Source: an uncultured Methanobrevibacter sp.
Lineage (GTDB): Archaea; Methanobacteriota; Methanobacteria; Methanobacteriales; Methanobacteriaceae
DNA: 32,651 bases
Direction: 5' to 3'
Assembly: GCF_902774605.1 (NCBI RefSeq)
Contig: NZ_CACYJE010000014.1
Coordinates: 1 to 32,651, forward strand
This document shows, one piece after another, positions 29,657 through 31,080 of this stretch (position 1 is its first letter; each line of letters starts with the position of its first letter). The position numbers were made by a program, and so were the translations under genes. The notes beneath the pieces are model-generated. The model saw only the letters and a program-made list of their open reading frames with translations, was not told the origin of the DNA and searched no databases.

Positions 29657-30508
29657 TTAAAACCTATTAGGAACCTTCAAATGATCAGGAAGCGGCTTGA
29701 TACGTGCAGGTGTTCCGATTGCAAGGTAGAATGGCGGAACTGAATGAATCACTATAGCTCCGGCCGCAACAATGGATCCTTCACCGACTTCAACGTTGGA
29801 CAGGAATGTTGTGTTTCCTCCGATTGAAGCTCCGCGCCTCACTTTCGGTCCTTGAAGTTCATAATTAATTCTTACAGGATACTTATCGTTAGTAAAACAA
29901 GCGCAAGGTCCGATAAACACATTGTCCTCAATCACGGAATTGGTTGGAATGTAGACGTTGGATTGTATGCTGACGTCATTTCCGATTATGACATCCCCCT
30001 CGATTACTGTATTGGTTCCGATCAGCACGTCATCTCCGATGTTTGTGTTTTCACGGATTACCACATTGTGTCCGGTTCTGAAATTGTCCCCTATGACCAC
30101 ATCATTGTAGATTATGGAGTTTGAGCGGATTGTGTAGTTCTTGCCTATTACCGGCGGCTTTGAGTTAGGGGAGTATTCGACCCCGAACTGAATATTCTGG
30201 TCTTTTGGAAATGTCAATTCCGGTTTTGAGTAGTCTGGCTGGATTGACTCATGCTCTATTTGAGGCTTTTCATAGATTATCTCTGCCGGCTCCATCCTTT
30301 GCGGCTGGGCATAGATATTGTCCTCTGGATAAACTGGTCTTTGAACCGGGTTTGGCCTTGGAGGTTGAGCATACAGTCTGTCATCCCTAGGCATCTGGGC
30401 AACTCGTGGTTGTTCCTGCTGATAATGCTGATTTTCCACAGGTTGCCTATAAGGATTTCCTCGATTCTTTGATTGTTTATCATCAAGAGTTTGTGAAAAT
30501 CTAACCAT
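29657..30508 (-). CDS. Hexapeptide-repeat (left-handed beta-helix) acyltransferase with disordered N-terminus
   Basis: This 283-residue protein has two parts. Residues 1-105 are Pro/Gln/Arg-rich and lack structure-forming residues, with recurring YAQP, RPVY and PRP motifs (disordered). Residues about 115-270 are hexapeptide coils ([47 protein letters not shown]). They end in a [22 protein letters not shown] cap and the closing [11 protein letters not shown] typical of sugar O/N-acetyltransferases (WbbJ/VatD-like). The catalytic His is probably in RTGHNVV or the INYEL loop; this is uncertain. It may act on nucleotide sugars for surface glycans. It lies directly upstream of a rubredoxin gene. 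Confidence 0.85.
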
Positions 30509-30583: not shown

Positions 30584-30681
30584 GTGGTTTGAAAATATGA
30601 TTTTTTTGAATAAACCCGCAACAATATTTACTCAAACTTGTTAAAAACACCCAATAATTATAATTCCAAATTAAAATCAAT

Positions 30682-30713
30682 ATTGTAAGTATACAATAGC
30701 AATTAATATATAT
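30682..30713 (+). promoter_or_regulatory. Palindrome and TATA box before the 35-residue gene
   Basis: ATTGTA-AGTA-TACAAT (30682-30697) is followed by AATTAATATATATTA (about 30701-30714). The TATA centre lies about 25 bases before ATG 30735, so the message would be leaderless. The palindrome resembles the TTGTATACAA sites near 2.9 kb. Confidence 0.4.
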
Positions 30714-30734
30714 TATGAAGATTAATTGAATTTT

Positions 30735-30842
30735 ATGACAAGAAAAAGCATTTTAGATGAGTACAATTATGAAAAATTGAAAAAAAGAAAACAAAGAGAA
30801 AATGACACAATATTAAGTTATAAAAATATAAAGAAAATTTAG
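30735..30842 (+). CDS. Possible 35-residue basic protein
   Basis: The frame reads MTRKSILDEYNYEKLKKRKQ, then RENDTILSYKNIKKI. It is basic, probably one helix, with no recognisable family. Support is limited to a well-placed TATA box and an upstream palindrome; there is no ribosome site. It converges on the antitoxin-like gene, with a 4-base overlap of the ends. It could be a regulator or micro-toxin, or a chance frame in AT-rich DNA. Confidence 0.35.
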   Translation: MTRKSILDEYNYEKLKKRKQRENDTILSYKNIKKI

Positions 30843-30994
30843 AGATCAAACCCTATTAAAGGGACATCTCTTGCATTTCTAACTTTTTCCTTATATTCTT
30901 TCTCTTTTTCAGTTAAAGGAGCATTCATATCGTCAATTAAGTCTTTTAAATCTTCTCCTTCAAAAATTGGGGTTGGTGCGATAGGTTTCGCCAT
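30839..30994 (-). CDS. Small antitoxin-like protein, 51 residues
   Basis: The frame reads MAKPIAPTPIFEGEDLKD, then LIDDMNAPLTEKEKEYKE, then KVRNARDVPLIGFDL. The opening PIAPTP-x-F/L-x-GED followed by an acidic helix, P-x-T-E-K-E-K-E and a basic helix resembles a family of small archaeal antitoxin-like proteins. This is from memory of the pattern, not a search. A GAGGTG ribosome site lies 6 bases before ATG 30994. A palindrome (31060-31073) lies in its promoter. No toxin gene is adjacent in the same operon, so it is an orphan here or pairs with the tiny convergent gene. It is a real gene with good probability; function is uncertain. Confidence 0.65.
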   Translation of the reverse strand: MAKPIAPTPIFEGEDLKDLIDDMNAPLTEKEKEYKEKVRNARDVPLIGFDL

Positions 30995-31059
30995 AATAAC
31001 CACCTCTTTCAATTTAATTTGAAAATACTTTTACATGAAGTATTCAATCAATAATATAT

Positions 31060-31080
31060 TAGTTAAATAACTATATAATG
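31060..31080 (-). promoter_or_regulatory. Promoter with palindromic operator for the antitoxin-like gene
   Basis: TAGTTA-AA-TAACTA (31060-31073) sits between a minus-strand TATA box (CATTATATAG, 31071-31080) and the expected transcription start near 31045. This is a repressor-like position. The rest of the gap to 31198 shows no gene. Confidence 0.45.

Follow-up and report, generated by a model that had tools for sequence, protein, structure and literature searches.

The closest described systems are the type II toxin-antitoxin (TA) systems in which a GNAT acetyltransferase is paired with an RHH (DUF1778) antitoxin, namely TacAT, KacAT, AtaRT and GmvAT, whose toxins, as described in PMC9177977, attach an acetyl group to the amino acid of charged tRNAs and arrest translation. 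Other modules with a GNAT are the GNAT-DUF4065 pair VcaA-VcaT (PMC9177977) and the GNAT-Xre pairs, a 2009 prediction of Makarova et al. (PMC2701414). In its account of GNATs outside the "true TA clade" (DUF1778), PMC9177977 (2022) reports that they are preceded by short divergent ORFs without a DNA-binding domain, and leaves open there whether such GNATs are toxins with "yet unidentified antitoxins". Among the titles and abstracts of open-licence PMC papers, none was found on the family presented here or on a convergent GNAT TA pair, and no link between this family and the Bacteroides fragilis "GNAT-XAT" element was established from passages of PMC9138018.

The locus studied here is like the GNAT-RHH systems in enzyme sequence, predicted fold, catalytic tyrosine and adjacent or overlapping genes, and the bacterial relatives of the family also place the small gene first. 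It differs from them in its small protein, which is mostly 45 to 54 aa long and has no RHH domain or family match, in the genes of Methanobacteriaceae, which converge and form no operon, and in the deletion of the enzyme in the window. Since the RHH antitoxin is absent, the module is not a member of the GNAT-RHH group; in the layout of its parts and its type of enzyme it resembles one, and, to judge by sequence, it would work like one. With the GNAT-DUF4065 pair of PMC9177977 it shares a GNAT with a non-RHH partner, but the small protein gave no DUF4065 match; with the GNAT-Xre pairs as predicted in PMC2701414 it shares the two-gene module with a GNAT, but no HTH domain was recognised in the small protein. 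The GNATs with short ORFs are those that the family fits by the description given in PMC9177977, a comparison made by description and not by the tree of that paper.

The window, i.e., the whole analysed stretch of 32,651 nucleotides, is contig C14 of a draft genome (2.14 Mb, 108 contigs) whose nearest named relatives are Methanobrevibacter records. Its relevant features are as follows.

29657 to 30508, minus strand: flanking gene, hexapeptide-repeat-like (by eye), in the same position in the orthologous locus, where it anchors orthology.
30681 to 30698, no strand: inverted repeat TATTGTA-AGTA-TACAATA with 7-base arms, at chance level and non-conserved.
30735 to 30842, plus strand: 35-codon ORF, by comparison with the orthologue what remains of a convergently oriented gene for a GNAT acetyltransferase, its first ~17 and last ~18 codons fused in frame.
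30766 to 30794, plus strand: deletion-junction zone inside the 35-codon ORF (by alignment), with the identical 10-base repeat at 30766-30775 and the best breakpoint by matches at 30790-30793.
30839 to 30842, no strand: 4-base, tail-to-tail overlap of the two ORFs at their stop codons, present also in the orthologue and in 10/43 intact convergent pairs.
30839 to 30994 (stop counted), minus strand, start at 30994, stop at 30839-30841: 51-codon ORF, antitoxin-like, of the MAKPIxxTPxLxGxDA family (from sequence, relatives and dN/dS).
31000 to 31006, minus strand: GAGGTGG, Shine-Dalgarno-like, 5 bases upstream of the ATG of the 51-codon ORF (from sequence).
31060 to 31073, no strand: inverted repeat TAGTTA-AA-TAACTA with 6-base arms, at chance level and non-conserved.

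An earlier note on this DNA had described two tiny convergent genes, each with a palindromic operator at its promoter. The ORFs, the strong ribosome site of the 51-residue gene, the 4-base overlap and both palindromes are real; the operators are not supported, and the 35-codon ORF is no independent gene. Markov-1 simulations that kept the composition and the size of each region gave at least one inverted repeat with 6-base arms in 66% and 73% of cases for the two palindrome regions, about 1.8 to 1.9 being expected per region, and a 7-base-arm repeat in 36% of those for the region of 30681-30698. The density in other intergenic stretches of the window is similar (0 to ~8 per 200 bp), and the orthologous locus, which has other inverted repeats, lacks both palindromes at the corresponding positions. 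Neither palindrome exceeds chance or is conserved, and neither is counted as an operator.

The nature of the 35-codon ORF emerged from the orthologous locus, JAUNXN010000030.1 (L110) of another Methanobrevibacter, with which locus L006 was taken as the same place because their proteins agree. There, beside the same flanking gene, the nearest relative of the 51-aa protein (82-84% identity) is encoded by a gene that overlaps, also by 4 bases, that of a 176-aa GNAT acetyltransferase. In a blastn comparison, the window and the orthologous locus share two blocks that end and restart within the 35-codon ORF, and without gaps the ORF follows the start of the GNAT gene to nt 56-59 and then its last part. 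When the two GNAT ends were joined as a chimera, it matched the ORF at 83/108 nt, against at most 59 in 2000 shuffled versions of the GNAT gene. An identical 10-base repeat occurs in both GNAT ends, 423 bp apart, which is the exact missing length (141 codons), and the part lost from the remnant, GNAT residues ~18 to ~158, includes the acetyl-CoA site and the catalytic tyrosine. By this alignment, the 35-codon ORF is the two ends of a ~176-aa GNAT gene joined in frame by a 423-bp deletion. Our best reading, to which we assign a probability of about 0.78, takes the locus to be the relic of a convergent, non-RHH GNAT TA-like module, in which a TacT/KacT/AtaT-like toxin was lost through this deletion between short repeats and the 51-aa antitoxin-like protein was left orphaned. 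It draws on what the sequences show, which is the deletion, the orthology of the two loci, the pairing of the two genes, the class of fold and the tendency for the enzyme, rather than the small gene, to be lost. The minimal TA-like module of the earlier note survives here in part, in the antitoxin-like character of the 51-aa gene and in the convergent two-gene module from which the locus descends.

The family of the 51-aa protein has no name; its members are in most cases 45 to 54 aa long, with the consensus MAKPIxxTPxLxGxDA, in which M, P4, I5, T8-P9 and G13 are conserved. At E up to 0.01, it gave 76 matches in the genus set, where 40/67 genomes were positive, and a profile search of the phylum set found it in 71/151 genomes. 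A named genome collection yielded 41 loci, 37 from Methanobrevibacter or Methanosphaera records and 4 bacterial (L147-L150). In a draw of 198 genomes of one bacterial order, which we take to be Bacteroidales from the Prevotella record used as its centre, the small protein is sparse, since only 9/198 genomes were positive. Searches of Pfam, NCBIfam and PADLOC with the 51-aa protein gave no significant family match and no RHH or HTH domain, unlike the known GNAT antitoxins, and the known antitoxin families were rejected for it. From the PDB, a profile search retrieved only a cyclodipeptide synthase, one helix of which matched weakly over 30 positions (E 7e-4), and this was taken as not meaningful. 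AlphaFold2 predicted, from 20 sequences, an extended N-terminus followed by two helices, with no strand and no RHH (mean pLDDT 85.7, pTM 0.44). DUF4065 proteins are far longer than this small protein. Between the window and the orthologue, the small gene has dN 0.11 and dS 1.08, a dN/dS of ~0.10 (ratio bootstrap 0.02-0.26), and judging from this ratio it was under constraint since the split from the orthologue, for a time that in part predates the deletion. Two other small-protein loci are unusual. At G000:C28:13058-13204 (L003, 1501-1647), a decayed small-protein gene with internal stops and without a GNAT lies between genes that by eye are histidyl-tRNA-synthetase-like and shikimate-dehydrogenase-like; at G056:C4:88218-88946 (L065, L141), near a contig end, the small-protein gene is found three times in tandem, one copy with an early TAG, and no GNAT was found nearby.

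Adjacency of the small gene to a GNAT gene, as in the two-gene modules of type II, was found at 57/76 copies in the 67 genomes of the genus, 33/40 loci of other genera and 17/19 bacterial loci. In the genus, these 57 copies have the GNAT within 1 kb and all gaps are <200 bp; 53 of the pairs are convergent and 4 same-strand, and the other 19/76 copies have no GNAT match within 1 kb. When all 76 were classified by HMM, both genes were intact in 45 (43 convergent, 2 GNAT-first), the GNAT was broken in 13 and absent in 15, and the small gene was broken in 3. The stop-to-stop distance of the 43 intact convergent pairs ranges from -30 to +160, with 39 of them within -30..+30, ten at -4 and six at -9. 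Outside the genus, where the 40 loci are part of those found by the phylum profile search, 32 of the 33 pairs are convergent and 1 is GNAT-first, and 14 of the GNATs are broken. At the bacterial loci, which come from the four named genomes and the 198-genome draw, all 17 GNATs are downstream of the small gene on the same strand, and 3 are broken. The same-strand, antitoxin-first operon usual for TA systems is thus the layout of the bacterial relatives, and the present pairs of Methanobacteriaceae depart from it, being convergent and rarely GNAT-first. A tree of 82 GNATs places the 14 bacterial proteins (small gene first) apart from the 68 archaeal proteins (63 convergent, 5 GNAT-first), the split having support 100/99, and requires 3 layout changes in all; because its root is arbitrary and it contains several long bacterial branches, the direction of change is one that we infer. 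By these counts, the pairing of the small gene with a GNAT is widespread in methane-making archaea and some bacteria, and it represents a putative TA-like pair, so far unnamed.

The GNAT partner scored above the Pfam cut-off for three GNAT families. In a phmmer search of the PDB, KacT (1.1e-10) and 6g96 (1.8e-10) came at the top, followed by further acetyltransferases. Its fold, predicted with a mean pLDDT of 90.7 and a pTM of 0.84, had chains of GNAT toxins as its first 38 matches (KacT, AtaT, AtaT2, TacT1-3, GmvT and 7byy, an entry titled only "bacterial toxin"), at E 2e-12 to 7e-10, and the next GNAT at 1.1e-7. Tyr141 aligns with Tyr145 of KacT, of which 5xun is titled the Y145F mutant, and is invariant in 24 GNATs. 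A TacT/KacT-like GNAT with its catalytic tyrosine is therefore encoded by the orthologue and the relatives, and not by the 35-codon remnant of the window.

At the 65 loci away from contig ends, both genes are intact in 39, the GNAT is broken in 11 and undetected by HMM in 13 (with an intact small gene in all of these), and the small gene is broken in 2; no broken small gene stands beside an intact GNAT. Broken small genes are under-counted in this tally because the loci were collected through the small gene, a bias which the check from the GNAT side covers only in part. Nine GNAT matches initially seemed partnerless: a profile recovers the partner of three (G018:C106, G025:C3 and G022:C6), G029:C68 has its partner cut by a contig end, G029:C16 has both genes broken, G016:C146, G056:C50 and G024:C34 are near contig ends, and G030:C6 has no partner and, by eye, also lacks the usual catalytic motifs; away from contig ends, this check thus found no partnerless GNAT except the motif-less G030:C6. 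These tallies indicate that the enzyme, and not the small gene, tends to be broken or missing. Among the GNAT-less loci, tblastn shows clear remnants in the window and at G037:C66. In other genera, the GNAT next to an intact small gene is divided into two frames at L162, L166, L169, L172, L176, L180 and L188, the position of the split varying between these loci, and L169 being in a single-contig genome. The GNAT homologue at G030:C6:45922-46266 (L159 1737-2285) has an acetyl-CoA loop and FY motif unrecognisable by eye. In G016, a coding stretch that by eye is a TnpB-like C-terminus (L009 1-264) adjoins the orphan small gene, and the GNAT is close to one end of a different contig, so that an insertion may separate the two.

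The earlier note had proposed a minimal TA pair whose toxin is the 35-residue basic peptide. The ORF is open and in frame, its product is basic and its overlap with the 51-codon partner is kept, yet its two halves match the ends of the 176-aa GNAT, no obvious or strong ribosome site is seen upstream of it by inspection of the sequence, and over its 35 codons dN is 0.24 and dS 0.62, with a ratio bootstrap of 0.08-1.39 that is indistinguishable from neutral. Searched against its own genome, the 35-aa frame matched only itself, with no second copy, and elsewhere the 51-aa gene is found with a full GNAT instead, which in substance is what the earlier note had named as evidence against its proposal. 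In the only comparable internal-deletion remnant, G037:C66, the frame is lost. The peptide was rejected as a toxin, and we regard this explanation as barely tenable. A misassembly in place of a real deletion, with a full GNAT still present in the living cell, is in keeping with a draft of 108 contigs and a junction at a repeat; against it, the identical repeat has only 10 bases, shorter than usual assembly words, and many GNATs are independently broken at related loci, including one in a single-contig genome, which leaves this explanation very improbable.

A different alternative accepts the pair but not its TA character, the GNAT being an ordinary acetyltransferase, of metabolism or of proteins, which the small protein serves as substrate, activator or adaptor. 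We consider it unlikely: the nearest folds are all tRNA-acetylating toxins or their close kin, the patchy distribution (40/67 genomes) and the one-sided decay suit an antitoxin better, and a needed adaptor should decay together with its enzyme.

Under our preferred reading, that of the relic of a TA-like module, the intact GNAT would, by analogy with the named families, acetylate charged tRNAs and so stop translation, and the small protein, predicted as an extended N-terminus with two helices and no DNA-binding domain, would bind and block it. Since such a domain is absent and the promoters are separate, the conditional repression of a single operon that is usual elsewhere is an unlikely mode of control here; antisense control or transcript overlap through convergent transcription, which the earlier note had raised, is possible. 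In the host genome, a search with the GNAT found a copy on contig C23 and the remnant in the window (E 3e-4). The C23 copy, 45% identical, is the only intact form of the enzyme in that genome and has its own small partner; the orphan of the window may still neutralise it, or may simply not yet be lost.

More tentatively, and with somewhat less than even odds, MAKPIxxTPxLxGxDA could represent a new antitoxin family without a DNA-binding domain, common to archaea and bacteria, for GNAT toxins outside the DUF1778 clade. The operon would have become, in Methanobacteriaceae, a long-kept convergent and often stop-overlapping pair, resulting in separate promoters and antisense transcripts, and the enzyme would have been lost repeatedly, with the antitoxin staying as an anti-addiction gene. 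With its dozens of intact pairs, the family offers a definite antitoxin candidate, which makes it directly testable whether GNATs with short neighbours of this kind are toxins. If the proposal is true, a tail-to-tail TA pair without an antitoxin-first operon needs another way to keep the antitoxin ahead, and the window illustrates the end of such a module, with the toxin lost first.

Far from this locus, positions 1-1500 of the window have a G+C of 0.47-0.58, against ~0.36-0.42 in the next 3 kb, and contain frames that by eye are repeat-protein and aminotransferase-like; this stretch is possibly a foreign or chimeric contig end.
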